A stretch of 64,000 nucleotides of DNA from Peribacillus simplex. Lineage in GTDB: Bacteria; Bacillota; Bacilli; Bacillales; DSM-1321. The stretch's first letter is position 1. The number at the start of each line of letters is the position of its first letter. The translations under genes and the position numbers were made by a program. This document shows positions 38,765 through 58,396 of this stretch, one piece after another. The notes under the pieces were generated by a model, which saw only the letters and a program-made list of their open reading frames with translations, was not told the DNA's origin and made no database searches. The stretch spans positions 248,001-312,000 of the forward strand of contig NZ_FTMX01000005.1 in NCBI RefSeq assembly GCF_900156045.1, read 5' to 3'.

Positions 38765-40495
38765 TTAAATCATTTTATTGATACTTCTCATAAAGTCTTT
38801 CATAACGGTGGATAATTTCCCTTTCGCTTCCTTCATCGAGCTTCCTTGAACACCGAAATAAAATTTAATTTTAGGTTCTGTTCCGGAAGGTCGTAAACAT
38901 ACCCAGGTGCCATCTTCAAGAAAATATTTTAATACGTTCGATTTTGGGAGCTTGATGGCCTCTTCCCTATTTGACGCAAACATGTATTTTTTCCTGCTGA
39001 GATAATCCTCTTGAACCACTACTTGATGACCAGAGATTTGATCTGGTGGATTTTCACGGAATTCATTGAGAATCGCATCAATTTGTCTGGCACCTTCAAT
39101 TCCTTTTAAAGTCAGCGATTGCAAATCTTCCAAGTAATATCCATATTTTTCGAAAACTTTCATTAAACCTTCGTACATCGTTTTGCCTTGCTTTTTGTAA
39201 TAGGCACAGACTTCCACTGCCAGAATGGTAGCCTGTATGGCATCCTTATCTCGAGCAAAATCTTTGATTAGATATCCATAGCTTTCTTCATAGCCAAACA
39301 GGAAAGAATGTTCTCCACTTCTGTGGTATTCATTGATTTTTTCAGCAATGAACTTAAATCCAGTTAAAACATCTACGGTCTTTAAACCATTTTGCTCAGA
39401 AATCGCCCTTCCTATTTCTGAGGTCACGATGGTTTTTAATACGACTCCATTTTCAGCAAGAGTCCCTTTCTTTTGTTTTTGTGAAATTAAATAATCCAAA
39501 AAGAGAGCGCCTGTTTGGTTGCCTGTTAATACGACATAATCTCCAGCATTATTTTTCACGCTAATTCCGAGCCTATCCGAATCCGGATCAGTGGCAATTA
39601 ACAAATCAGCGTCGACGCGGTTACCAAGCTCAATGGCCAATTCAAAAGCAGCATGTTCCTCTGGATTAGGGACTTTAACGGTAGGAAAGTTAGCATCGGG
39701 CTTTTCCTGTTCTTTAACAAAATGGACATTTCGATATCCTAGATCATGCAAAGCACGTTTTACCGATTTATTGGCTGTACCATGAAGCGGTGTAAATACG
39801 AGCTTTACATCGATTTCATCTGCTAACTTTGGATTTTCCGGAATAGTGAGCAATTGCTCATTATAAGCAGTATCCAGCTCCTCCCCGATGATTTGAATGA
39901 GTCCTCTGTCCTTTAGGATTTCTTCTTCTTCAACTACAAGGGAAAGCTCACTTTCAATCGCGTTCACGTAATTAATGACTTGATCCGCCGCTTCAGGAGG
40001 TAGCTGTGCCCCGTCTGATCCGTACACTTTATACCCATTATATTCAGGCGGATTATGGCTTGCTGTAATGACGATACCGGCAAATGCATCCAGCTTACGT
40101 ACGGAAAAAGAGAGCTGTGGGGTAGGTCGTAATTCATCAAATAGATAAGCTTTAATTCCCTTTGTTGCCAAAGTCTTGGCTGCTTCCAATGCAAATTCGG
40201 GAGACTTATGTCTGGAATCGTAAGCAATTACGACTCCTCTGGATTTTGCCTCGTTTCCAAACGATTGAATATACTCAGCAAGTCCTACAGTCGCTTTTCG
40301 CACGGTATAAATGTTCATCCTATTCGTACCTGGACCAATTTCCCCTCGCATACCACCCGTCCCAAATTCCAAATTTTTATAAAAGGCGTCTTCAAGTGCT
40401 ATTTCATCATCCTTCATTTCTTCAAGCAATAAACGCATTTCATGATTTAAATTAGGGTAACTCGTCCAATTATTATACATATATTCCCAACCCAA
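38765..40495 (-). CDS. pgcA: Alpha-phosphoglucomutase
   Basis: Interconverts glucose-6-phosphate and glucose-1-phosphate, feeding UDP-glucose synthesis; 576 residues, very close to B. subtilis PgcA. Landmarks are [11 protein letters not shown] near residue 44, the phosphoserine site TASHNPP (Ser146), the Mg site DPDSDRLG near residue 300, the sugar-binding GYEESYG near residue 410 and the C-terminal phosphate loop RPSGTEPK. The TTG at 40495 fits, because AAGGAG is upstream and the N-terminal [10 protein letters not shown] aligns with the family start; an ATG five codons in lacks a ribosome site. It stands at the edge of the glycosyltransferase and sugar-nucleotide region. Confidence 0.95.
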
Positions 40496-41140: not shown

Positions 41141-41214
41141 ACTCCCTATATATAATAACTACTGGGTACCCAGCTTGTTTTTTCGTAACTGTTTTTAAGT
41201 TTTCCTTACTTGAT

Positions 41215-42804
41215 TTATTTTTTCTTTTCCTTTTTCTTTTCCTTTTTCTTTTCCTTTTTCGTTTTCTTTTCTTTTTCTGTTTTCGTTTTCTTTTCTTTTT
41301 CTGTTTTCGTTTCCGTTTCCGTTTCCGTTTCCGTTTTCGTTTTCGTTTCCTTTTTCTTTTCTTTTACTGTTTTCGTTTTCGTTTCCGTTTCCTTTTTCGT
41401 TTTCTTTTCGTTTTCCGTTTCCTTTTTCGTTTTCTTTTCGTTTTCCGCTTTCTTTTCTGTTTCAGTTTCCGTTTCCGTTTCCGCTTTCTTTTCCGTTTTC
41501 TTTTCCGTTTTCTTTTTCTTTTTCTTTTTCGTTTCCTTTTCGTTTTCTGCTTTCTTTTCCTTTTCCTTTTCGTTTTCCGCTTTCTTTTCCGTTTTCTTTT
41601 CTGTTTCAGTTTCCGTTTTCTTTTCTGTTTCAGTTTCAGTTTCCGTTTCCGTTTTCTTTTCTGTCTCAGTTTCCGTTTCCGTTTTCTTTTCTGTCTCAGT
41701 TTCCGTTTCCGTTTCCGCTTTCTTTTCCGTTTTCGTTGTATTAACAAGAGAATATAATCTTTGTTGCTCCATAATTTGTTTATTGATATCAAATTTTTCT
41801 TCAATGACTTTCCGTGCTCTTTCCGTAAAGTCGTTCCAAACCTCTGGATGTTCTAAAAAGAATTGTATGCCTTTCGCTAACTCAATATCATTTTTTTCGG
41901 GAGCTAGGTATCCTGTTTTCAGGTGTTCAATTAATTCAGGGATTCCCGCATGTTGGGTGGAAACGACAGGTAAACCGCTAGCCATTGCTTCTTTTAAGGC
42001 ATTAGGAATGCCTTCGATATCACCGCTTTTAGCAGTCTGACTTGCAAGGCAAAAGATATGAGCTTTTTTCAATTCATTTGAAACTTGTTTTGAATTCATA
42101 GCTCCTCTAAGAATCACAGCATCTTTAAGATTAAATTCTGTAATGATCGATTTAATTTTATTCTCATCTTCACCTGCTCCAATAATATGCAGTCTAGCAT
42201 TCGGATATTGTGTATAAATCCTTTTAAATGCTTTTATGAGAGTAACAAATCCTTTTTTGTCTACAAGTCTACCTACAGATAATATTCTTATTTCGCCTTC
42301 TTTAGGTAGTGTGGGGGTAGAATAGGCGAAAAGATCTAATTCGATACCACCATATAACACATGAATTTTATCGTCCGGAATTCCTAAACTTCTTAATCCT
42401 TGTGCAAGATATTCGCAAACAGGAAAAAATTGTGCACCATGTTTAATTAATGATGAATATCGCTGAGCATTTTTTTTAAAAATTTCTGGTCTGTCAGAAC
42501 CATCGCGCCCTCTAATGCTAACCATCAATGGGATATTATATTTTTCACATACAGGCAAAATATCTTGTCCGTGTTTTCCATGATGAGCATGAATGGCTAT
42601 GACCTCTTGTTCTTTGAAGAAATTTTCTAGATCTTTAATCTTGTTTATATTATAGTAGTTTTCAAAGGGGAATTCTGTATGGATGGTATTGTCGAATGGG
42701 CCGATTACAATGGAGCGATAGCTACTTATTTTTACGATTTGATTATATATAAAACGTTGGTGTGTTTTAATATTTTCACTTACAAAATAAGCAATGGTTT
42801 TCAT
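41215..42804 (-). CDS. GT4 glycosyltransferase with Glu/Thr/Lys repeat tail
   Basis: 529 residues. Residues 1-354 form a GT-B, family 4 glycosyltransferase: HAHHGKHGQDILP, IRGRDGS, FFPVCEYLAQGL, VLYGGIELDLF, the nucleotide-binding LSVGRLVDKKGF and the E-x7-E region EGIPNALKEAMASGLPVV. It is closely related to the tail-less enzyme at 54782. From residue 355 to the end, about 175 residues are almost only Thr, Glu, Lys, Ala and Asn in TE, EKK and AENEK units. The DNA is a run of GTTTCC/GTTTTC-type hexamers (on the plus strand), so the length can change in steps that keep the frame. The start overlaps the preceding gene by four bases. The acceptor is unknown. Confidence 0.88.
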   Translation of the reverse strand: MKTIAYFVSENIKTHQRFIYNQIVKISSYRSIVIGPFDNTIHTEFPFENYYNINKIKDLENFFKEQEVIAIHAHHGKHGQDILPVCEKYNIPLMVSIRGRDGSDRPEIFKKNAQRYSSLIKHGAQFFPVCEYLAQGLRSLGIPDDKIHVLYGGIELDLFAYSTPTLPKEGEIRILSVGRLVDKKGFVTLIKAFKRIYTQYPNARLHIIGAGEDENKIKSIITEFNLKDAVILRGAMNSKQVSNELKKAHIFCLASQTAKSGDIEGIPNALKEAMASGLPVVSTQHAGIPELIEHLKTGYLAPEKNDIELAKGIQFFLEHPEVWNDFTERARKVIEEKFDINKQIMEQQRLYSLVNTTKTEKKAETETETETEKKTETETETEKKTETETETETEKKTETETEKKTEKKAENEKEKEKKAENEKETKKKKKKKTEKKTEKKAETETETETEKKAENEKKTKKETENEKKTKKETETKTKTVKEKKKETKTKTETETETETKTEKEKKTKTEKEKKTKKEKKKEKKKEKKK

Positions 42805-43139
42805 CCTGCCTCAGTTCCTTTTACAAGAAATTCATATTTACTCTTCTCGCGTTCTTCTAAAACTAATAGTTCTTGATAATTGCCTAATTTTTTAATTTTT
42901 CCTTGTTCTCCACTTTGCTTCACTTGCTTGTGATATTCATGAGGGAACATGGAATCTGCTTTATAAATGTCTTTGTATGGTAGTTCTTCAGAACAAACTA
43001 TAAAATAGTTTTCATATAGGGGATTTAATTTGTATAGAGGATTATTTGTAGCATTACGTGAAAGGGACGTCATGAGAAAATCTGAAAAATTATACTCCTT
43101 AACAACTTCCAATTGTGTTTTCATATTTTCAGGGTTCAA
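42801..43139 (-). CDS. Hypothetical protein coupled to GT4 gene
   Basis: 112 residues, TTG start with AAAAGGAG seven bases upstream. Hydrophilic, with the patches PLYKLNPLYENYFIVC and FPHEYHKQVKQSGEQGKIKK. Its last four bases overlap the start of the glycosyltransferase, so the two are translated together. No family recognised and no signal or membrane segment. The tight coupling suggests a partner or acceptor-side role for the transferase. Confidence 0.6.
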   Translation of the reverse strand: MNPENMKTQLEVVKEYNFSDFLMTSLSRNATNNPLYKLNPLYENYFIVCSEELPYKDIYKADSMFPHEYHKQVKQSGEQGKIKKLGNYQELLVLEEREKSKYEFLVKGTEAG

Positions 43140-43455: not shown

Positions 43456-44460
43456 TTATTTATTGTATTTATTGTACCAACTTACAAAATGAGTTAAACC
43501 TTCTTCTATTGTTGTTGAAGGGTAGAAACCCACATCAGCATGCAAATCGGCAATATCTGCATATGTCTCCTTAACATCTCCAGGTTGCATCGGTAAGAAT
43601 TCTATTTTGGCCTTTTTTCCAATTAGTTTCTCTAGTGTGTTAATGAAATCCATTAATTTTATGGGCTTATTATTACCGATATTATAAATTTTGTATGGGG
43701 CATAGCTTGAACTTGGATCAGGGTTAGCTCGATCCCATCCAGAATGATAGACCGGTGGTTTATCAAGTAATCGGATTATTCCTTCAACAATATCATCAAT
43801 ATAAGTAAAGTCTCTTCTCATATCTCCATTATTGAAAACCTTTATTGTTTTCTCTTCAATAATATTTTTAGTAAAAGAATAATAAGCCATATCTGGTCTC
43901 CCCCATGGACCATAAACCGTAAAGAAACGGAGTCCTGTGGTTGGAATATTATATAAATGACTATAAGTATGAGCCATTAATTCATTAGACTTTTTAGTGG
44001 CAGCATATAAACTTACTGGATGATCCACTGGGTCTTTGGTTGAGAAGGGGATATTTGTATTTGCTCCATATACAGAACTGGAGGATGCATAAATTAAGTG
44101 CTTTACATTATTTTGTCGGCAGACCTCTAAGATATTTAAAAACCCAACCAGGTTGGAATTAACATAAGAATCCGGATTTTCTATGCTATAACGTACTCCA
44201 GCCTGGGCTGCTAAGTTGATGACTATATCAATGGATCTGTCTTTAAATAATTGATTTAATTTTTCTTTATTAGTTAAATCCAATTTATGGAATTCGAAAT
44301 CAGGGTTTTCTTTTAATATCTTGAGTCGATTGTTTTTTAAAAAAACATCATAATATTCATTAATATTGTCTACTCCTATAACATTGATATCTAGGGTTAA
44401 CAAACGTTTTGTTAAATGGAAACCAATGAATCCTGCAGCACCTGTTACTAATATATTCAT
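43456..44460 (-). CDS. UDP-glucuronate 4-epimerase
   Basis: 334-residue extended short-chain dehydrogenase that converts UDP-glucuronate to UDP-galacturonate through a keto intermediate. NAD-binding TGAAGFIG at residues 6-13, catalytic Ser127-129 region (YASSSSVYG) and Tyr152-x3-Lys156 (YAATKKSNE). The DNINEYYDV loop after the second strand, the GLRFFTVYGPWGRPDMA block and MRRDFTYIDDIVEGI match the CapI/LspL type and differ from GalE. With Ugd and GtaB in the same region it completes a route from Glc-1-P to UDP-GalA. Monocistronic; the ATG has only a weak ribosome site (AAAGGATTGG). Confidence 0.88.
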   Translation of the reverse strand: MNILVTGAAGFIGFHLTKRLLTLDINVIGVDNINEYYDVFLKNNRLKILKENPDFEFHKLDLTNKEKLNQLFKDRSIDIVINLAAQAGVRYSIENPDSYVNSNLVGFLNILEVCRQNNVKHLIYASSSSVYGANTNIPFSTKDPVDHPVSLYAATKKSNELMAHTYSHLYNIPTTGLRFFTVYGPWGRPDMAYYSFTKNIIEEKTIKVFNNGDMRRDFTYIDDIVEGIIRLLDKPPVYHSGWDRANPDPSSSYAPYKIYNIGNNKPIKLMDFINTLEKLIGKKAKIEFLPMQPGDVKETYADIADLHADVGFYPSTTIEEGLTHFVSWYNKYNK

Positions 44461-44879: not shown

Positions 44880-46061
44880 CTATACAAGCGTATTATCATT
44901 TTCAGTTAATGGGATTGGTGTTTTTGTCCATTCAGCATACGTACCAGGATCTAACGCCTTCACTTGTTCCAAAAAAGAATCTAAAAAATTCCTTTCTCGC
45001 AGGTCTTTAAATAACTCGAGAGGCCTTTTTTGTTCACGTGAAAACGAGTACACATGGTCGACTAATTTAAAACCATTCCTGGTAATGATAATATGCCGTA
45101 ATGGGGCATCAATTTGTTTGAAACCTGATTTTTCCATTGTTTTTAATATATAGAGTAATCGTCTTGTTATGTCCTCAGAAAGTACAGATTGTTTTTTTAG
45201 AAACGTATTTAAATCTGGTCCTAATAGATATTCCATTAAAATATAATTGGGTCCTGTTTCAAAGACTTTCGGGATAAAAGGCAAGTCTTGACTAGATAAA
45301 AGAACCATTTTTTCCTGATTTGCATGTTCAGTTTTCCCGTAAAGTTTAACGCATGCTTCTTCAGACACTCGATAAACAGCACCTTGATGCCCTTTTCCAA
45401 TGAGTGTTTGTGTTATAGCGCTATCCACTTTTACTCCATTACCTGACCCTCCTGAGAGGACGGGAATGTTTCTAAAATCCAAATTATTTTGATTGAAATA
45501 ATCCTCCCACTCATTGAAGGTGTCCGGTTCAAGCTTTTTCACTTGGGCTAAGAACGATTCCTTTAAAAGGATTATATTTAAATCCCTTAATAATTTTAAT
45601 GGTACGGGGTGCATCCTTTTAAAGGAATTTACATGGTCAATCACCTTAAGTTCCTCATTACCAACGACAAAAATATGACGTAGGGGGGCATCTATCATGG
45701 TGAATTTTGCTTGTTTTAATTCTTTTAATATATAGAGAAGTTTCTTTACTATGGAATCAGGGATATACGTACAATTTCTCAGATATTCTTTTAAGGTTGG
45801 CGCATTAAAATATTCCATGACTATATAGTTTGGTCCTGTTTCATACACCAATGGCATAAAGGGTAGATGTTTTCCAGCTATAAGAGCTTCTTCCTCCATT
45901 TCCGCTTGTACGGGGTCTGAATAGATTTTTACACATTTATCTTCTGAAAGTTTAAATACTGCACCTTGAGCCCCCATTCCAATCAGCGAATAGGTAGTGG
46001 GATTGTGAATTTCCAAAGATTTTTCACCTTTGGTTACAGTAATGTTTTTAAAATCCTCCAT
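44880..46061 (-). CDS. Tandem kinase-like protein (two kinase-fold units)
   Basis: 393 residues made of two homologous units, about 1-195 and 210-385. Each has a glycine-rich loop (LIGMGAQGAVFKL; LIGKGHQGAVYRV), a VAIK-like Lys (CVKIY with Lys45; CVKLY), a hinge (YIVMEYF; YILMEYL) and an IDAPLRH - IDH/VDH pair standing where kinases have HRD and DFG. The usual Asn after HRD is replaced. Similar single-unit proteins in Bacillus are annotated as putative serine/threonine kinases (YrzF-like); spore coat CotS proteins have a related fold. The start ATG overlaps the end of the upstream glycosyltransferase by 14 bases, behind GGAGGAG, so it is translationally coupled. Confidence 0.75.
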   Translation of the reverse strand: MEDFKNITVTKGEKSLEIHNPTTYSLIGMGAQGAVFKLSEDKCVKIYSDPVQAEMEEEALIAGKHLPFMPLVYETGPNYIVMEYFNAPTLKEYLRNCTYIPDSIVKKLLYILKELKQAKFTMIDAPLRHIFVVGNEELKVIDHVNSFKRMHPVPLKLLRDLNIILLKESFLAQVKKLEPDTFNEWEDYFNQNNLDFRNIPVLSGGSGNGVKVDSAITQTLIGKGHQGAVYRVSEEACVKLYGKTEHANQEKMVLLSSQDLPFIPKVFETGPNYILMEYLLGPDLNTFLKKQSVLSEDITRRLLYILKTMEKSGFKQIDAPLRHIIITRNGFKLVDHVYSFSREQKRPLELFKDLRERNFLDSFLEQVKALDPGTYAEWTKTPIPLTENDNTLV

Positions 46062-47784
46062 GATCTCCTCCTAACTGCTCATCTATGGACTTATGTTGAA
46101 AATGTTGAATTTTATTAAGGACTTTTTTGACTTTTTCTGCTTTTTGAGCCTTTTTGTCATTTTTACGAGATGCAATTTTTTCATCATTACCTTTAGTCTT
46201 ATGTTGAATTTTAGACTTTTTGTCATTTTTATTAGATGCTACAAGTTCATCTTTGACTTTATCTTTAGTCTGCTGTTGCAGCTGTTGCAGCTGTTGTAGC
46301 TGTTGGAGCTGCTGGAGCTGTGGAAGTTCTTGAAGCTGTTGAAGTTGTTGTAGCTGCTGTAACTGTTGTAGCTGTTGCAGCTGTTGCAGCTGTTGTAGCT
46401 GCTGGAGTTGCTGTAGTTGCTGTAGCTGCTGTAGCTGTGGAAGCTGTTGCAGCTGTTGCAGCTGTTGCAGCTGTTGCAGCTGTTGCAGCTGTTGCAGTTG
46501 TTGCAGCTGTGGAAGCTCTTGAAACTCTGGAAGCTCTTGAAACTCTGGAAGCTCTGGAAACTGCTGTAGCTGTTGCATATAAATAAGGGCTTTTCTGGCT
46601 ATTTCGACTTTTTTTCTAGGAGCAATTGTTTCGCCATTATTACCTTGCTGTTGAGGCTGTGGAGTCTCCTTAAAGGTTTTTTTATCCATTTGGCGAGGTG
46701 TTACTGAATATTGTTTACCTACTTTATAAGGGGCTACAAGTTCATCATAAAATTCAGCTTGTTGTTGAAGCTGATGGATGAGGTTAAAGTTTTGTTCGAC
46801 TTTTTGACGAGCCGCTATTGTATATGTTTCCCATGTCTCTCTATTAGTTAGCATGATTTCAAGAGCATCTGCCAGTTCATCTACGTTGTTTTCTTGTACT
46901 AAAACACCCTCTTTGTTATTGGTTATTAATTCAGGGATGCCGGCATGATTGGTCGAAATCACTGGTACTCCAATCGCCATAGCTTCTTTTAATGTATTAG
47001 GTATTCCTTCTACATCTCCATCGGCAGATTCTAAGCTCGCGGCACAGAATATATCCGCATTGGTCAATTGTTCTCGAACTTGATCTTTAGGGAGATGATT
47101 CAATAAACGAAAAGAGTCTCCTAAATTAAGTTGATTTGCCAATGATATGAGATATTCTTCAAGTTCCCCCCTTCCGATAATCGTCAGGGTTGCATTTGGA
47201 AATTTACCTTTGATTTTTTGAAATGCTTGCATTAAGACATGATGTCCTTTTTTTTCCACCAACCTACCGATGGATAAAATGTTTTGAGAGTCCCCTTTAT
47301 GTGGAGTCCGGTAATTGAATTCGTTAAGGTCAACGCCCCCATAGAGCACTCTAATTTTTTCTGAAGGACACCCCCAAGCAATTAACCTATCTGCTAAATA
47401 CTGACAAACTGGAAAAAAACACTCACCTTGATCAAATAGCCTTTTCATGTTATCCAGATAGCCAATGGGCTGATTAGCTAGGGTTGCATCCCTGCCTCTT
47501 ATACTTGTAACCAACGGAAGGTTTGTTTCCTCTTTAAAAGGAAGCAATAACATCCCTAATTGACCATGGTGAGCATGTAAGAGGGAGATATTATTTTTTT
47601 TCACATATTCTTTTGGTGAGAAAATTTCATTGAGATAATGAACTTTCTCATTCAAAAGGGAAAGATCTATCATATACTTTGGTTGTCGTACCATATGGAT
47701 ATAATCATAATTAGGAACTTCTCGAATCTGTGAGATATATTGGGTCGGGTCGACTCTTAAATTCAAATGCATAACTGTGTGCAA
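46048..47784 (-). CDS. GT4 glycosyltransferase with Leu-Gln-Gln repeat tail
   Basis: 578 residues. Residues 1-350 are a family 4 glycosyltransferase (LLHAHHGQLGML, IRGRDAT, FFPVCQYLADRL, VLYGGVDLNEF, LSIGRLVEKKGH, EGIPNTLKEAMAIGVPVIST). After a Gln-rich linker, about residues 395-505 are Leu-Gln-Gln repeats with a few Pro, Glu and Phe, encoded by CTG-CAA-CAG 9-mers. The end, about 70 residues, is basic (KNDKKSKIQHK, KVKKVLNKIQHF). The tail would form a long amphipathic coiled coil. The TTG at 47784 has AAAGGAG upstream. It is followed by the coupled tandem kinase-like gene. A CATAATATA -10-like site upstream hints at sporulation expression. Confidence 0.85.
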   Translation of the reverse strand: MHTVMHLNLRVDPTQYISQIREVPNYDYIHMVRQPKYMIDLSLLNEKVHYLNEIFSPKEYVKKNNISLLHAHHGQLGMLLLPFKEETNLPLVTSIRGRDATLANQPIGYLDNMKRLFDQGECFFPVCQYLADRLIAWGCPSEKIRVLYGGVDLNEFNYRTPHKGDSQNILSIGRLVEKKGHHVLMQAFQKIKGKFPNATLTIIGRGELEEYLISLANQLNLGDSFRLLNHLPKDQVREQLTNADIFCAASLESADGDVEGIPNTLKEAMAIGVPVISTNHAGIPELITNNKEGVLVQENNVDELADALEIMLTNRETWETYTIAARQKVEQNFNLIHQLQQQAEFYDELVAPYKVGKQYSVTPRQMDKKTFKETPQPQQQGNNGETIAPRKKVEIARKALIYMQQLQQFPELPEFQELPEFQELPQLQQLQQLQQLQQLQQLQQLQQLPQLQQLQQLQQLQQLQQLQQLQQLQQLQQLQQLQQLQELPQLQQLQQLQQLQQLQQQTKDKVKDELVASNKNDKKSKIQHKTKGNDEKIASRKNDKKAQKAEKVKKVLNKIQHFQHKSIDEQLGGDHGGF

Positions 47785-48007
47785 ATAAATGATCTCCTTT
47801 CATGCATAGTAAGCAAATTTCCTGGACCTTTTCAAGTATATTATGCAGGACTCTTTAGGTACGCATGGACTAATAACATACAGTAAAGCTAAATGGCAGA
47901 GAGTATGCGTTTGCCTAATACAAAGGGGGGATTGAAGTAAATGCCATGACACAAGATTATTTGCAATCAATGGATCGATGAAGCTCTTTCTTCCATTTAA
48001 AGAAATA
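47785..48007. other. Intergenic region with sporulation-like -10 element
   Basis: On the minus strand CATAATATA (near 47840) fits the late mother-cell -10 pattern CATA-N3-TA. An AC pair lies 13 bases further upstream. No gene seen. Confidence 0.3.
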
Positions 48008-48117: not shown

Positions 48118-49446
48118 TTATGTCATGCCAATAACAATTGCCGGTCTTCCTATTGGATAATATTCAATTTTCTTGCACGCTTTGATTCGATCTTCTTCAA
48201 GACAATTTCTGCCATCAAAAACAATCGGTTGTCTCATTGTATTCATCAATGTCTCTAGGTCTAAATGTTTAAACTCATTCCATTCGGTAACAATAAATAC
48301 AGCATCCGCATCCACTGCCGCTTCGCGAACTGAGCTGGCAAATCTGATTGTATCCCCTAATATCTTCTTCGCATTATCTATTGCCACCGGATCGTAAGCT
48401 ACCACTTCTGCACCAAGTTTGGTTAATGAACGCGCAATTTTGATGGATGGAGCTTCCCTCATATCGTCTGTCTCTGGCTTGAAAGCAAGACCAAGCATTG
48501 CAACCTTTTTCCCTTTTAAATCCCCCATACGATTTATCGCTTTCGTTACAAGGAGTTGCTGCTGAAAATCATTAATCGCTACTGTTTCTTTTAACAGGGA
48601 AAAATGTACTCCATGTAACTTGGCAGTATGGAGCAACGCTTTAACATCCTTCGGAAAACAAGATCCACCATAACCAATACCGGGCTGTAAAAAAGCTTCT
48701 CCAATCCTTTTATCTTTTCCCATTCCCTTTGCTACATCTTTAACATCTGCACCTACTACTCCGCATAAATTGGCAACTTCATTGATAAAGCTAATCTTAG
48801 TCGCCAAAAAGGCATTAGAAGCATACTTAATCATTTCCGCACTTCTAATACTTGTTAGTATAAATGGTACATTTAACGGACGATACATTTCTTGTACATT
48901 CTTAGCCGCCTCATTATTTTCAGAACCGATGATGATTCTATCTGCCTTCATCGTATCCATAACGGCTGATCCTTGCCTTAAAAATTCAGGATTTGAAACC
49001 ATATTAAAGGTGACCCTTTCGTTACAAAGGTCTTCCATGATTTTTTTAATAAAATCATTCGTACCAACTGGCACAGTACTCTTTATAACGACTACTGAAC
49101 TCTGCACTAGGTTCGCGGCAATATCCTTCGCGGCTTGCACAATATACGATAAATCTGCTTCCCCATCCTCCTTTTGCGGTGTACCTACGGCAATGATGAT
49201 AATCTCGGCACCATTCAGTGCCTCTCGATGAGATGTTGTAAACAGCAGTCTGCCCGCTGCGGCATTTTGAGCAAGCAAATTCTCCAGACCCGGTTCATAT
49301 ATTGGAGAAATCCCTTGACGTAAACTTTTTATTTTCTGTTCATCTGTATCAATACAAATGACACTATGCCCTATTTCGGACAAACAAACACCAGTGGACA
49401 GCCCGACATAACCTGTACCCAAAACGGCTATTTTCATATTATTCAT
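48118..49446 (-). CDS. ugd: UDP-glucose 6-dehydrogenase
   Basis: Oxidises UDP-glucose to UDP-glucuronate with two NAD; 442 residues. N-terminal Rossmann GTGYVGLSTGV (residues 10-20), central dimerisation helix region (SAEMIKYASNAFLATKISFINE) and the catalytic Cys263 in GYGGSCFPKD. Strong match to TuaD/YwqF-type enzymes. It overlaps the end of gtaB by eight bases (a second ATG three codons in is also possible), so the two enzymes are made together. Product goes to the epimerase at 43456 and probably to the local glycosyltransferases. Confidence 0.95.
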   Translation of the reverse strand: MNNMKIAVLGTGYVGLSTGVCLSEIGHSVICIDTDEQKIKSLRQGISPIYEPGLENLLAQNAAAGRLLFTTSHREALNGAEIIIIAVGTPQKEDGEADLSYIVQAAKDIAANLVQSSVVVIKSTVPVGTNDFIKKIMEDLCNERVTFNMVSNPEFLRQGSAVMDTMKADRIIIGSENNEAAKNVQEMYRPLNVPFILTSIRSAEMIKYASNAFLATKISFINEVANLCGVVGADVKDVAKGMGKDKRIGEAFLQPGIGYGGSCFPKDVKALLHTAKLHGVHFSLLKETVAINDFQQQLLVTKAINRMGDLKGKKVAMLGLAFKPETDDMREAPSIKIARSLTKLGAEVVAYDPVAIDNAKKILGDTIRFASSVREAAVDADAVFIVTEWNEFKHLDLETLMNTMRQPIVFDGRNCLEEDRIKACKKIEYYPIGRPAIVIGMT

Positions 49447-50344
49447 GCTCTCTCTTTATAATCTGAAGGTTTTCTTTCTTATTTACATCCCTTAAATAGG
49501 AAAGTACCTCGTCTCTTATATCATCCCTGCGCAAAGCAAAGTCTATTGTTGCCTTAATGAATCCAACTTTATCACCAATATCATATCGGTTTCCCTCAAA
49601 GTTATATGCTAATACTGCCTGCTGCTTATTTAGCTCATTTATGGCATCAGTAAGTTGTAATTCATTACCATGTCCAACCGGAAGCTTTGATAATGTTTCA
49701 AAAATCTCGGGTCTAAAAACATAACGTCCCATTATCGCGTATCTGGAAGGAGCCTCTTCCCTTTTCGGTTTTTCCACCAAAGAATCGATATGAAAAAGGT
49801 TAGGCTCAATCATTGTCCCTTTTGGCTTAATAATTCCATATTTACTGACATCATTTTCCGGTACATTCTGAACTGCTACGACGGAACTGTTACAATACTC
49901 AAAAACACTGATGATTTGTCTCAGACAGGGTGTTTTAGACATAACGATGTCATCCCCTAACAAAACAGCAAAAGGTTCATTTCCAATGAAGCTTTTAGCA
50001 CAGAGAATTGCGTGTCCTAGCCCCATCGGTTCCTTTTGGCGGACATAATAGATATTTGCCAAACTTGATATTTTCTGAACTTCCTCTAAAATATCCAGCT
50101 GATTTTTTCTTAAAAGTGCATCTTCCAACTCATAGGATTTATCAAAATGATCCTCTATTGATCTTTTGCCTCTACCGATTATGATAATAATTTCCTCTAT
50201 ACCAGAAGCTACTGCTTCTTCAACAATATACTGAATCGTTGGTTTATCAACAATCGGCAGCATTTCTTTAGCCTGAGCTTTTGTTGCAGGCAAAAATCGG
50301 GTCCCAAGGCCTGCGGCCGGAATAATGGCCTTTCGGATTTTCAT
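49439..50344 (-). CDS. gtaB: UTP-glucose-1-phosphate uridylyltransferase
   Basis: Makes UDP-glucose from Glc-1-P and UTP; about 301 residues from ATG 50344 (AAAGGGAGG six bases upstream). The nucleotidyltransferase start AAGLGTRFLPATKAQAKEMLP, the VDKPTIQYIVEEA block, GLGHAILCAKSF and GDDIV metal site are all present, as is the sugar-binding VEKPKREEAPS. It takes the PgcA product and feeds Ugd. First gene of the two-gene operon. Confidence 0.95.
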   Translation of the reverse strand: MKIRKAIIPAAGLGTRFLPATKAQAKEMLPIVDKPTIQYIVEEAVASGIEEIIIIIGRGKRSIEDHFDKSYELEDALLRKNQLDILEEVQKISSLANIYYVRQKEPMGLGHAILCAKSFIGNEPFAVLLGDDIVMSKTPCLRQIISVFEYCNSSVVAVQNVPENDVSKYGIIKPKGTMIEPNLFHIDSLVEKPKREEAPSRYAIMGRYVFRPEIFETLSKLPVGHGNELQLTDAINELNKQQAVLAYNFEGNRYDIGDKVGFIKATIDFALRRDDIRDEVLSYLRDVNKKENLQIIKREHE

Positions 50345-51269
50345 AAGCTGCCTCCCTTTGTCATTCATTAATCCTTTATATGCATTAGGACAACTTCCGG
50401 TCTAGTTAGTAGCCCAATTAGTCCTTTTTTATTTAACGGGGGCCAGTGGCTATACATACAAGAATCACAAACTGGATGTGGCTGGGCGTCGCAACCTGCA
50501 GGTTTGTGCCAAATTAAAAACTCCATTACACTTTTTATGCAATGGAGTTACCATGGTTTTGGTGTAATGGTCGATAATACGGTGTGGATAAACCACTGTG
50601 CGAGCTTTTTTGCGGCTTTGTAGCCAGTCGGTATCCTTTATTCTTTCTTTGAAAAACTCTAGCCGTCAGAAATGAGGGCAACAATTTCTTTGATTAATAT
50701 AATGGGGATTGCAAGTCCCTTTATTATGACTAATTTATAATGGGTTTTTATACCTTTATATCAAAATATATGATGGAATGCATTCATGATTTTGAGGGGG
50801 GGATTTTCACTGATAAATTCTTAATCTAATAGAAGACAATAAAAAGGGGAGGTTTATTCCCACCTCCATTTTTAATTGAATTGTTAACAGGCTTGATAAC
50901 TAAGAGTACGAAATATGATGAAATGGATATAGTTTAGGCATTTTATTAGCTTTCTCCTAAAGCAACAACTTTTATCATCCTTGGTAAGGGTTAAGGCAAC
51001 AATACTGATTCTCCGTACGTGAAGAGAAAAACTTGGCATATTGGATTCATTTCCAATGAATCAATCCGCAACATTTGCAATCCTCGGCAGGTCCAAATGG
51101 GCGCCATCGACGCGAAGGTTTCGAATTCTGCAGGAAAACACCCAACATCAACTACTTCGATATATTAAAGTTGGTTACTATACCCTTTTGAAGAGGCTCA
51201 AATAATTGGGGATGTACATTTGTCGGACAGGAGTGGGCAATACTGTGAATCCTGACATTGCTCCGACTA
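50345..51269. other. Long intergenic region with two hairpins
   Basis: No gene recognised. Hairpins at 50520-50551 (AACTCCATT / AATGGAGTT) and 50846-50872 (GGGAGGT / ACCTCC with flanking A and T runs) look like terminators without an obvious gene in front, another sign of gene loss. Confidence 0.45.
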
Positions 51270-51618: not shown

Positions 51619-52134
51619 TTATTCAGTTTCATCTTCATTTTTATTACTGCCACTGCTAGTTGCTATATACATTGCAATCTGCGCCTTTTTTTCTAAATCT
51701 AAATCAAGTGTATCGATTATGCTAAAAGGCGATTTTAATTGGAGGGGTTGTGGCTGTGAAATCTTCGTTATTTCATGTAAGATTTGATTCAAGGTTTGTT
51801 CCTGTTCTTTAATTAACTGATTCTGAAGTTGAATCTGAAGTTCCTTCTGTTGTTGTTCTTGGCTTTGGAGTTGGGCTTGAATATTCTCTAGTGGTTGTGA
51901 AATCTTCGTTATTTCGCGTAATATTTTATTTAAAGTCTCATCTTGTTGTTTAATTAATTGATTCTGAAGCTGAACCTGAAATTCCTTTTGTTGTTGTTCT
52001 TGGATTTGGAGTTGGGCTTGAATATTTTCTAATATATGGTTAAAGTCATCATGCTTTTTATCATCTTTCTGACCCTTCTTATATTTTTTCATTTCGTCTT
52101 TCTTGTATTTATCTTTTCGATCATTTTTACCCAT
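51619..52134 (-). CDS. Repeat-built coiled-coil protein
   Basis: 171 residues, ATG behind AAAAGGTGGGAACC. A Lys/Asp-rich start (KNDRKDKYKKDEMKKYKKGQ) leads into two copies of a unit of about 47 residues: LENIQAQLQ-QEQQQKE, QLQNQLIK-Q, TLN-IL-EITKISQP. The end, LDLDLEKKAQIAMYIATSSG, is less repetitive. Strong coiled-coil character, no signal peptide. No family recognised. It lies between two integrase remnants in a decayed stretch yet is intact with its own terminator, so it may be the surviving cargo. Its Gln-rich helix recalls the Leu-Gln-Gln tail of the nearby glycosyltransferase. Confidence 0.65.
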   Translation of the reverse strand: MGKNDRKDKYKKDEMKKYKKGQKDDKKHDDFNHILENIQAQLQIQEQQQKEFQVQLQNQLIKQQDETLNKILREITKISQPLENIQAQLQSQEQQQKELQIQLQNQLIKEQEQTLNQILHEITKISQPQPLQLKSPFSIIDTLDLDLEKKAQIAMYIATSSGSNKNEDETE

Positions 52135-53425: not shown

Positions 53426-54022
53426 CTATATCGCATTGAAATCGATATTTTTCTGCCAGTCTTCATATGATTCAGGATCGATTTTCTTTGCTTGTTCCAG
53501 GAATATATCCAATAACCCCAATTTCTTTAAATCACGAAACATCTTCGGATTATATGGATCATTCATTGTGAGGCCATCTGAATGATCGATTGCTTTCAGC
53601 ACATTTCCCTTTGTTACAACAAAATGTCCGATTGAGGTCTTGATTCTACTAAATCCAACTCTCTTTAGTTCCTTTCGAATCATTATGATTTGTTCTGTAA
53701 ACGATTCGGGAATATCCTGCTTTCCTTTCAAATGATCTTTTAGATTGGGACCTTTTAAATACTCCATAATTACATAGTTTGGTCCGACTTCATATAACTT
53801 CGGAACAATATGAGTTTCCTTTGCTGCTTCAAGTGCTTTCCCCTCTTTAGTTGCTGCGTTGGGATTGACATAAATTTTCACGCAACGATCTTCATCAAGC
53901 TGAAAAACTGCACCTTGACTTCCTTCCCCAATTAGTTTTAATGTGGTTGGATTATGAATAATAAGTCCCTTTTTACCGTTCTTTTCTATTCTCTCAACCT
54001 TTATTGTTTTAAAATCATTCAT
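53426..54022 (-). CDS. Single-unit kinase-like protein, likely inactive
   Basis: About 198 residues from ATG 54022 (AGAGGTGAAG upstream). Homologous to each half of the tandem protein at 44880: LIGEGSQGAVFQL loop, CVKIY Lys, YVIMEYLKGPNLKDHL hinge and AIDHSDG. Where the tandem protein has IDAPLRH, this one has IKTSIGH, so the Asp in the catalytic-loop position is Lys. That suggests a pseudokinase or binding role. On the minus strand CATATCATA near 54068 resembles a late-sporulation -10. It is divergent from the Nudix/glycosyltransferase pair. Confidence 0.7.
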   Translation of the reverse strand: MNDFKTIKVERIEKNGKKGLIIHNPTTLKLIGEGSQGAVFQLDEDRCVKIYVNPNAATKEGKALEAAKETHIVPKLYEVGPNYVIMEYLKGPNLKDHLKGKQDIPESFTEQIIMIRKELKRVGFSRIKTSIGHFVVTKGNVLKAIDHSDGLTMNDPYNPKMFRDLKKLGLLDIFLEQAKKIDPESYEDWQKNIDFNAI

Positions 54023-54308
54023 CCAATCTTCACCTCTTTTCATCTTTTTTATAACCATAATTATGATATGTAATCATCGATTAGTTGCTTTAGGTTAATA
54101 ACACTTTTTCACAAAATTAAGACATACCCTCCCTAAAGGAAAGCTTTTCCCAGCATTTCTTCAGTGTCTTATGCTCATATACCTACAATAAAAAACTTCA
54201 CAAAAAACATACAAATATATGTACTTGTCCGTTTCAAGTACTTTCCACTTTGCATTTAATAAAAAAGAGGAATTACCAGAAAGAAAATGATCAGAAAGGA
54301 GACCTGGT

Positions 54309-54781: not shown

Positions 54782-55870
54782 GTGAAGACAATCGCTTTTT
54801 ACATTAGGGAACCTATTAAAATAAATCAAGGATTTATGTACAATCAGATCATTATGTTGGATCAATATCGGCCTATTGTAATAGGCCCTTACCCAAGTAG
54901 CGACAATGTTCAATATCAGTTTGAACATTATTTTAATTTGAATGAAATTCAAGACCTTGGAACCTTCCTTAAGGAGCAAAATGTCGTGGCGATTCACGCT
55001 CATCAAGGGAAACACTCCATTGATATTTTACCAACAGCTATAGAGTTTGATATTCCTTTGATTGTGCATTTTCGGGGACGTGATTCATCCACTCAAACAT
55101 ATAAGAGATTTCGCGAAAATGTCCTCCGATATCAAAATTTAGTAAAACATGGAGCTGGCTGTTTTGCCGTTTGCCATTTTCTTGCAGATGAGCTAAAAAA
55201 ATTAGGATTTAAAGACGATAAAATACATGTATTATATGGCGGTCTAGATTTAGATTTATACCCATATGTCCAACGTTCCCTACCTAAAGAAGGTGAAATC
55301 CGAATTTTGTCTGTAGCCAGGCTTGTCGAGAAAAAAGGATTTTTTACGCTTTTGAAGGCTTTTCAACGGATTCATCAGGAATACTCAAGAACGACACTGC
55401 ACATCATTGGGACAGGCAAAGATGAAGAGAAGCTAAGAGTTTTCATTGATGAAAACCAATTAAACGAACACGTTTTTCTTAGGGGACCAATGGATTCTAA
55501 CCAAATTTCTAAGGAATTAAGAGATTCCCATCTCTTTTGCCTTGCCAGTGAAACTGGCGAAGATGGCGATGTAGAAGGAATCCCAAATGCATTAAAAGAA
55601 GCCATGGCAAGCGGTTTGCCAGTCATCTCCACCTTTCATGGAGGGATCCCGGAATTGATTGAGCATAAAAAAACAGGATACCTTGTTCCTGAGAAAGATG
55701 ATATAAAATTGGCTCAAGGTATAAAATATTTCCTGAGTCATCCAAGAGTATGGAAGAGATATACCAGAAGTGCAAGACAGGTTATTGATGAAAATTTTGA
55801 TTTAAAAAAACAAATCATCGAACAACAAAGGCTATACAGCTTAATGGAAAAAAATAACGGAGCTAATTGA
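54782..55870 (+). CDS. GT4 glycosyltransferase without tail
   Basis: 362 residues, GTG start behind GGAAGGAAGGG in the end of the Nudix gene. Family 4 features: IHAHQGKHSIDILP, FRGRDSST, CFAVCHFLADELKKLG, VLYGGLDLDLY, LSVARLVEKKGF and the E-x7-E region EGIPNALKEAMASGLPVI. It is close to residues 1-354 of the transferase at 41215 but ends at NNGAN with no low-complexity tail, showing that the tails are later additions. A sugar donor from the local UDP-GlcA or UDP-GalA pool is plausible but not shown. Confidence 0.9.
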   Translation: MKTIAFYIREPIKINQGFMYNQIIMLDQYRPIVIGPYPSSDNVQYQFEHYFNLNEIQDLGTFLKEQNVVAIHAHQGKHSIDILPTAIEFDIPLIVHFRGRDSSTQTYKRFRENVLRYQNLVKHGAGCFAVCHFLADELKKLGFKDDKIHVLYGGLDLDLYPYVQRSLPKEGEIRILSVARLVEKKGFFTLLKAFQRIHQEYSRTTLHIIGTGKDEEKLRVFIDENQLNEHVFLRGPMDSNQISKELRDSHLFCLASETGEDGDVEGIPNALKEAMASGLPVISTFHGGIPELIEHKKTGYLVPEKDDIKLAQGIKYFLSHPRVWKRYTRSARQVIDENFDLKKQIIEQQRLYSLMEKNNGAN

Positions 55871-57751: not shown

Positions 57752-58396
57752 TTGACAGTGGAAACTAAAATAAGTAAAGAACAAACTATTTTTAATCATA
57801 TTGGAAATAAAATCAAAACGGAAGACCGAGAAATTAATGTAATTGCTAGATTAGATGAACCACTAATTGTAATATTAGGGAATGTTTTAAGTGACGAAGA
57901 ATGTGACGGACTTATCAAATTGTCAAAAGACAGAATGAATCGTTCCAAAATTGGAGTTATGCACGAAGTAAATGAGATAAGAACGAGCAGTAGTATGTTT
58001 TTTCAAGAAAATGAAAATGACATCATTACCAAAATTGAAAAAAGGATTTCAACAATCATGAATATACCCATTGAGCATGGAGATGGTATTCAAATTCTTA
58101 AATATACTCCTGGGCAAGAGTATAAAGCTCATTTTGATTTTTTTACATCCTCAAGTATAGCAGCAAAAAATAATAGAATTAGCACAATCATCATGTACTT
58201 AAATGATGTGGAGCATGGGGGGGAAACTTTTTTTCCTAAACTGAATTTTTCAGTGTCTCCGCGAAAGGGAATGGCTGTGTATTTCGAATATTTCTATAAC
58301 GACAAAAATCTAAACGAACTAACTTTACACGGTGGAGCGCCCGTTATCACTGGGGAAAAATGGGTTGCAACGCAATGGATGAGGAGACAAAAATAG
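57752..58396 (+). CDS. Prolyl 4-hydroxylase, 2-oxoglutarate/Fe(II) oxygenase
   Basis: 214 residues, very similar to the biochemically known Bacillus anthracis prolyl 4-hydroxylase. Iron ligands His127 and Asp129 (AHFDFF) and His193 (TLHGGAP), and the 2-oxoglutarate anchor Lys203 (GEKWVATQW) are present, as are MYLNDVEHGGETFFPKL and the PRKGMAVYFEY block. It hydroxylates Pro in peptides, and collagen-like exosporium proteins are the suspected substrates in the B. cereus group. No collagen-like gene is in the window. TTG start with GGGAG upstream. Monocistronic. Confidence 0.92.
   Translation: MTVETKISKEQTIFNHIGNKIKTEDREINVIARLDEPLIVILGNVLSDEECDGLIKLSKDRMNRSKIGVMHEVNEIRTSSSMFFQENENDIITKIEKRISTIMNIPIEHGDGIQILKYTPGQEYKAHFDFFTSSSIAAKNNRISTIIMYLNDVEHGGETFFPKLNFSVSPRKGMAVYFEYFYNDKNLNELTLHGGAPVITGEKWVATQWMRRQK

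Follow-up and report, generated by a model that had tools for sequence, protein, structure and literature searches.

The question raised by this locus is why a glycosyltransferase of an ordinary class should end in a long tail of lysine, glutamate, and threonine encoded by a hexamer array, and whether that tail serves the enzyme at all. The window analyzed here is a stretch of 64,000 nucleotides from Peribacillus simplex, and the gene, GT_A (41215..42804, minus strand), is an intact open reading frame of 529 amino acids. Its residues 1-355 match GT4 profiles, with PF00534 (E 2.3e-41, 141.6 bits) and PF13439 (E 8.3e-9, 36.1 bits) both over cut-off. E264 and E272 are invariant in 18 aligned sequences and form the E-x7-E motif of GT4 enzymes, and the core has dN/dS values of 0.16-0.36 against five relatives. 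The GT4 part ends in ...EQQRLYSLVN, after which the tail starts and runs for 174 codons (41218..41739) with a composition of K66, E53, T45, A5, N4, and V1. The original prediction of a GT4 enzyme with a hexamer-encoded Glu/Thr/Lys tail is thus borne out by the reading frame, both profiles, TRF, and this composition.

TRF places the array at 41220-41737 with scores of 389-453 and periods of 12, 30, and 66, each divisible by 6, the period-12 row stopping at 41734. Of 938 consecutive codon pairs in the 11 tails found in the genus, 683 show alternation of A and G at the third base, which reveals a hexamer register built on the unit (RAA)(AMG); the two free sites of this unit switch E/K and T/K. 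The expectation of a 6-bp unit therefore holds for the register but not for every unit, as units are not solely 6 bp and tail lengths in codons are odd as well as even. An open reading frame on the plus strand (41210-42040) spans the array, overlaps both the tail and the GT4 part of GT_A, and is treated as a by-product. No arrays with periods up to 12 and scores of at least 90 occur in 400 kb sampled at even spacing from a same-species genome, and the GT_A array is not a chance occurrence. The degenerate pattern (GAR AMN)4 GAR has three matches in the window's own genome, all within the GT_A tail, and its reversed form, used as a control, has two. A genome-wide repeat habit as the source of the tail is unsupported for short periods in the 400-kb sample.

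A genome search recovered GT_A orthologs, 84-100% identical over 355 amino acids, from 11 of 36 Peribacillus genomes, including P. frigoritolerans and P. muralis, and each of the 11 has a K/E/T tail in the same repeat frame. Two concerns are thereby settled: relatives within the genus that have the gene also have the tail, and an assembly artefact is excluded, as the arrays are present in one-contig genomes. Seven other genomes from the same family lacked an ortholog at the 84-100% level. Among 397 genomes drawn from across the order, with E 1e-90 or better as the homolog criterion, 17 outside the genus have homologs that are 50-69% identical and lie in open frames of 361-400 amino acids, and no K/E/T tail occurs at the C-termini of these 17 or of the named counterparts. 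The outgroup loci include Priestia abyssalis, Niallia, and Geobacillus. The 11 tail-bearing cores form one clade with support of 100/100 in a 38-row tree, for which a single tail gain, retained in all 11, would be the simplest reading. One record titled Peribacillus frigoritolerans F-D2 (L064) holds a tail-less glycosyltransferase of 53% identity; because its DNA for this gene is that of L083, from a genome placed in another family (f43), the title is taken to be wrong, and the record was left out of the genus count.

The original prediction that length would vary with the frame preserved is upheld by all 11 alleles. Tails measure 174 (G000), 153 (G020), 100, 52, 33, 47, 194, 39, 77, 19, and 61 residues, with no two equal, the shortest belonging to P. 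muralis (G013). G000 and G020 are one species, with cores 96% identical and pS of 0.05, and their tail DNA is 63 bp apart (522 versus 459 bp), aligning with 18 gaps of which eight are 6 or 12 bp; most pairs from different species share few or no 21-mers. Arginine plus glycine account for 10 of 949 tail residues in the K/E/T frame versus 11-48% of tail length in either alternative frame, and the homologous stop codon is kept in nine of 11 genomes despite 57-582 bp of array. In the remaining tails (G016 and G008) the frame shifts solely near the extreme 3′ end. No on/off frame switching was seen with at most two genomes per species, and a phase-variable contingency locus is unsupported, the frame being open in 11 of 11. 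Retention of frame and residue class argues for translation of the tail and for the importance of at least its general type, and the freedom of length and order suggests that it neither folds nor binds in a sequence-specific manner.

Lysine makes up 21-63%, glutamate 11-40%, and threonine 9-41% of individual tails, with Lys:Arg at 362:7 versus 1.72:1 in 257 open reading frames of the sample. The C-terminal half is more basic than the N-terminal half in all 11 tails, and in nine after the last 10 residues (five for the shortest tail) are dropped. Net charge is +13 over 174 residues in the window, and 0 and -1 in two genomes. All 11 are placed among disordered sequences by the charge-hydropathy boundary, in agreement with the charged, disordered tail that had been proposed, and on this compositional basis the tail is probably disordered. 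The G021 tail holds a non-repeat insert of ~26 residues.

One account of such turnover is a nearly neutral coding microsatellite, in which slippage of a purine-rich hexamer close to the gene end is unrestrained, the tail is idle, and the frame is kept solely because the Arg/Gly-rich tails of other frames harm the enzyme or the cell. The spread from 19 to 194 residues with no equal lengths, the scarcity of shared 21-mers, and the ability of P. muralis to manage with 19 residues all fit this account, as does the pattern within the unit, where variation falls on the two nonsynonymous sites (T/K and E/K) and third bases are homogenised. Nor does the origin of the array need a special cause, since a few tail-less relatives end in short basic stretches such as the ...SKKKGKSKK of L073. 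Against it, the tail has been lost in none of the 11 genomes, and both residue class and basic end are retained. Moreover, short-period arrays are absent from the 400-kb sample, yet a different coding array is present in the adjacent GT_B, which suggests a cause specific to the cluster. Neutral slippage ranks close behind the attachment role set out below and is almost as likely.

The cluster itself is of an ordinary type. A spore-surface context had been suggested for GT_A, and gene content (galU, ugd, an epimerase, and GT4s) supports it, making this a likely spore-surface polysaccharide cluster by analogy. In transcriptional order, all on the minus strand, it comprises a UTP-glucose-1-phosphate uridylyltransferase (galU, 49439..50368; TIGR01099 over cut-off), a UDP-glucose 6-dehydrogenase (ugd, 48118..49446; PF03721 E 1.2e-66, TIGR03026 over cut-off), a second GT4 enzyme (GT_B), a protein-kinase-like protein of two similar halves that overlaps the end of GT_B (44880..46061; weak Pkinase match below cut-off), an NAD-dependent epimerase that is YtcB-like by context (43456..44460; PF01370 E 8e-61), a kinase stump, GT_A, and a phosphoglucomutase (pgm, 38765..40495; PF02878, PF02879, PF02880). 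Ten of the 11 genomes with a tail conserve this order, some with a NUDIX-like gene between GT_A and pgm. In G021 (L042, L043), ~16 kb of other DNA separates the stump from the epimerase. Several cluster genes are broken in G008 (L045), possibly through sequencing errors, given that this genome is 87% complete. Another kinase-like protein lies at 53426-54058 (minus strand), the one with two halves at 44880..46061 being presumably YrzF-like; related pieces occur near the cluster in several genomes. A 2OG-Fe(II) oxygenase (57752-58396, plus strand; PF13640) is also found near the cluster, and in several relatives. A CATAATATA box at 47837-47845 (minus strand) sits ~61 bases 5′ of the GT_B start (60 in L048) and is unchanged in all 12 genomes compared; no -35 element at a suitable distance from it matches the sigma-K or sigma-E consensus.

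The closest known counterpart is the ytaA/cotS-cotSA-ytcABC-ytdA cluster of B. subtilis, which likewise combines at least two related GT4s with a UDP-glucose pyrophosphorylase, a UDP-glucose dehydrogenase, and an epimerase (PMC2860764). There CotS/CotI-family kinases accompany the GT4s cotSA and ytcC, and entry of CotSA into the spore requires CotS (PMC2860764). The outgroup loci resemble this arrangement in placing a CotS/CotI-like kinase directly 5′ of the glycosyltransferase, whereas in Peribacillus the glycosyltransferase is tailed, other kinase-like genes are present, and no full CotS/CotI kinase is adjacent.

What stands in that position is a 112-amino-acid open reading frame (42801..43139, minus strand) that overlaps the GT_A start at ATGA and corresponds by tblastn to the last ~91 residues of a spore kinase of CotS/CotI-like type (BSK) and lacks the first ~227. 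Against the Priestia abyssalis gene at the same place it is 51% identical over residues 228-318 of the latter (E 2e-23), and it has no Pfam or NCBIfam family match of its own. Full-length outgroup kinases match PF01636 (APH) over cut-off and TIGR02906 (spore_CotS; E 8e-27 and 2e-30) below the curated cut-off. The stump frame is open into the GT_A start in nine of 11 genomes and shifted in two (L038, L047). Its dN/dS is 0.27-1.48 against four relatives. When set beside the values of the GT_A core, epimerase, kinase-like gene, and ugd for these four, it is the higher one in 15 of 16 cases, and this elevation marks the stump as probably a relic, retained perhaps for translational coupling to GT_A. 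Among 14 tail-less loci of the Priestia, f24, and Geobacillus-type group, some of which are one genome counted twice, a full-length kinase lies 5′ of the glycosyltransferase in 12, Priestia abyssalis and Geobacillus among them, and is broken in two.

Among the genomes compared, tail gain and kinase truncation thus fall on one branch, and for that reason a takeover of attachment by the tail is proposed. GT_A would be a plausibly active GT4 enzyme belonging to a cluster for spore-surface polysaccharide, and in the Peribacillus lineage it would have gained a disordered tail, largely of Lys/Glu/Thr and with a more basic end. The hexamer array would continually rebuild this tail by slippage and unequal exchange, with selection retaining reading frame and residue class rather than length or order. 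The tail would recruit GT_A to the spore coat and retain it there by charge, perhaps with lysines serving as cross-linking sites, and would stand in for the CotS-type kinase partner truncated in the same lineage. This role of a lysine-rich coat-attachment module is put forward tentatively, as the leading account but with somewhat less than an even chance of being right. The scaffold and spacer roles envisaged originally are indistinguishable from sequence.

Several observations weigh against such a role. The takeover would rest on one coincidence, kinase loss with tail gain on a single branch, and lineages with neither adjacent kinase nor tail exist (the paralog GT_C, Niallia, f43, and the two loci with a broken kinase). 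The tail is as short as 19 residues in P. muralis and has net charges of 0 and -1 in two genomes, and GT_A is missing altogether from 25 of the 36 genus genomes, including G028, where most of the cluster is kept. A CotS over cut-off is encoded elsewhere in six of the 11 tail-bearing genomes, so the kinase partner is not lost from all of them; the window's own genome has a separate CotS-GT4 pair at another place. A consistent sporulation promoter was not found 5′ of the stump and GT_A. The spore-coat transglutaminase Tgl and CotH also occur in GT_A-less genomes.

GT_A is not the only repeat-bearing enzyme of the cluster. The original prediction contrasted it with a tail-less near relative, and GT_C (54782..55870, plus strand), a GT4 paralog whose identity to the GT_A core is 59%, is indeed tail-less; but this paralog is not the entire contrast, because GT_B (46048..47784, minus strand), overlooked in that prediction, has a repeat tail of its own. 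Within a conserved C-terminal extension that ends ...EQLGGDHGGF in the window copy, GT_B carries a variable (LQQ)n array (46272-46562, minus strand; 9-bp unit), and from its YDELVA-type motif to the stop it spans 146-285 residues in 11 unbroken copies, G028 included. A third repeat, of 141 bp, lies in a small Gln-rich protein (51619..52134, minus strand; TRF), with two copies in the window and three in L041, L045, L047, and L048. The cluster stands apart in having three dissimilar coding arrays within 11 kb, versus three places in the 400-kb sample, although the stretch had been chosen for having an array.

This pairing of lysine-rich and glutamine-rich tails invites the proposal that Tgl joins lysines of the GT_A tail to glutamines of the GT_B (LQQ)n array and of the 51619 protein, making both enzymes covalent parts of the coat. 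Tgl acts on Gln and Lys substrates pre-assembled in the coat, and its substrates GerQ, YeeK, and SafA are coat proteins joined through Lys-Gln bonds (PMC6490927); cross-linking of a glycosyltransferase here would be putative by comparison. With GT_A tails of 21-63% lysine and nearly no arginine, 15-93 glutamines in the GT_B extension of every tail-bearing genome except G008, where it is broken (10 of 11), and Tgl (PF20085) in all 11, a Lys-Gln weld would be possible. Tgl is not specific to tail-bearing genomes, however, being present in 20 of 25 without GT_A and in 31 of 36 overall; GT_A tail and GT_B extension lengths are uncorrelated (Spearman 0.29, p 0.39, n = 11, including the broken G008), and P. 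muralis is nearly without the LQQ array. Cross-linking is therefore unlikely. Equally doubtful is its boldest form, in which the two operon sugar transferases would double as coat proteins, their Lys and Gln tails continually rebuilt in-frame and welded by transglutaminase both mutually and onto the coat, replacing the ancestral kinase-dependent recruitment, with the repeat length of each strain setting the distance between enzyme and surface.

Two further roles draw on other features of the tail. The ugd and epimerase genes would be expected to yield an acidic (uronate) polysaccharide, and the basic end, seen in 11 of 11 tails, could bind this product and hold the enzyme to it; the modest net charge in many genomes makes this very improbable. 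The least likely role is modification of threonine, by glycosylation or by phosphorylation through a CotH-type kinase or the kinase-like neighbors, in the manner of CotG/ExsB repeats. Threonine as an acceptor was part of the original prediction, and it is poorly supported: although threonine reaches 41% and CotH is present in all 11 tail-bearing genomes, its share varies ~4.6-fold between tails (lysine 3, glutamate 3.8), is at most ~26% in seven of 11, and falls to 9% in G001, leaving nine threonines there and five in G013. CotH occurs in 26 of 36 genus genomes, GT_A-less ones among them. Beside CotH, and oriented divergently from it, the window's own genome encodes a CotG-like protein (L143:8751-9212, plus strand), and its RRTSRRRST repeats are unlike the K/E/T tails, which hold 7 arginines and 11 serines in 949 residues, making involvement of CotH less likely.

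Among spore-surface proteins, the collagen-like repeat of BclA is length polymorphic in frame and so recalls the GT_A tail as a coding repeat, but BclA is a structural filament of collagen triplets and not an enzyme tail. The coat proteins CotG, CotB, and ExsB offer predicted-disordered short repeats at the spore surface, and in the B. cereus group the repeats of ExsB carry phosphorylated threonine (PMC7821199); theirs are Ser/Lys/Arg (Thr) repeats in dedicated coat proteins, whereas that of GT_A is a K/E/T repeat on an enzyme. In the literature, as represented mainly by titles and the openings of abstracts, no description of a tail-bearing glycosyltransferase of this kind or in this setting was recognised.

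The tail is a real and unusual feature common to all GT_A orthologs recovered from the genus, attached to an enzyme of ordinary class in a cluster of ordinary type. The 11 alleles, with cores 84-100% identical to that of the window and tails of 19-194 residues, form a natural series suited to testing what disordered tails do on enzymes. They also offer a testable case of an enzyme that may have lost a partner protein and gained a disordered tail instead, and of coding microsatellites that would reshape a likely spore surface within one species.
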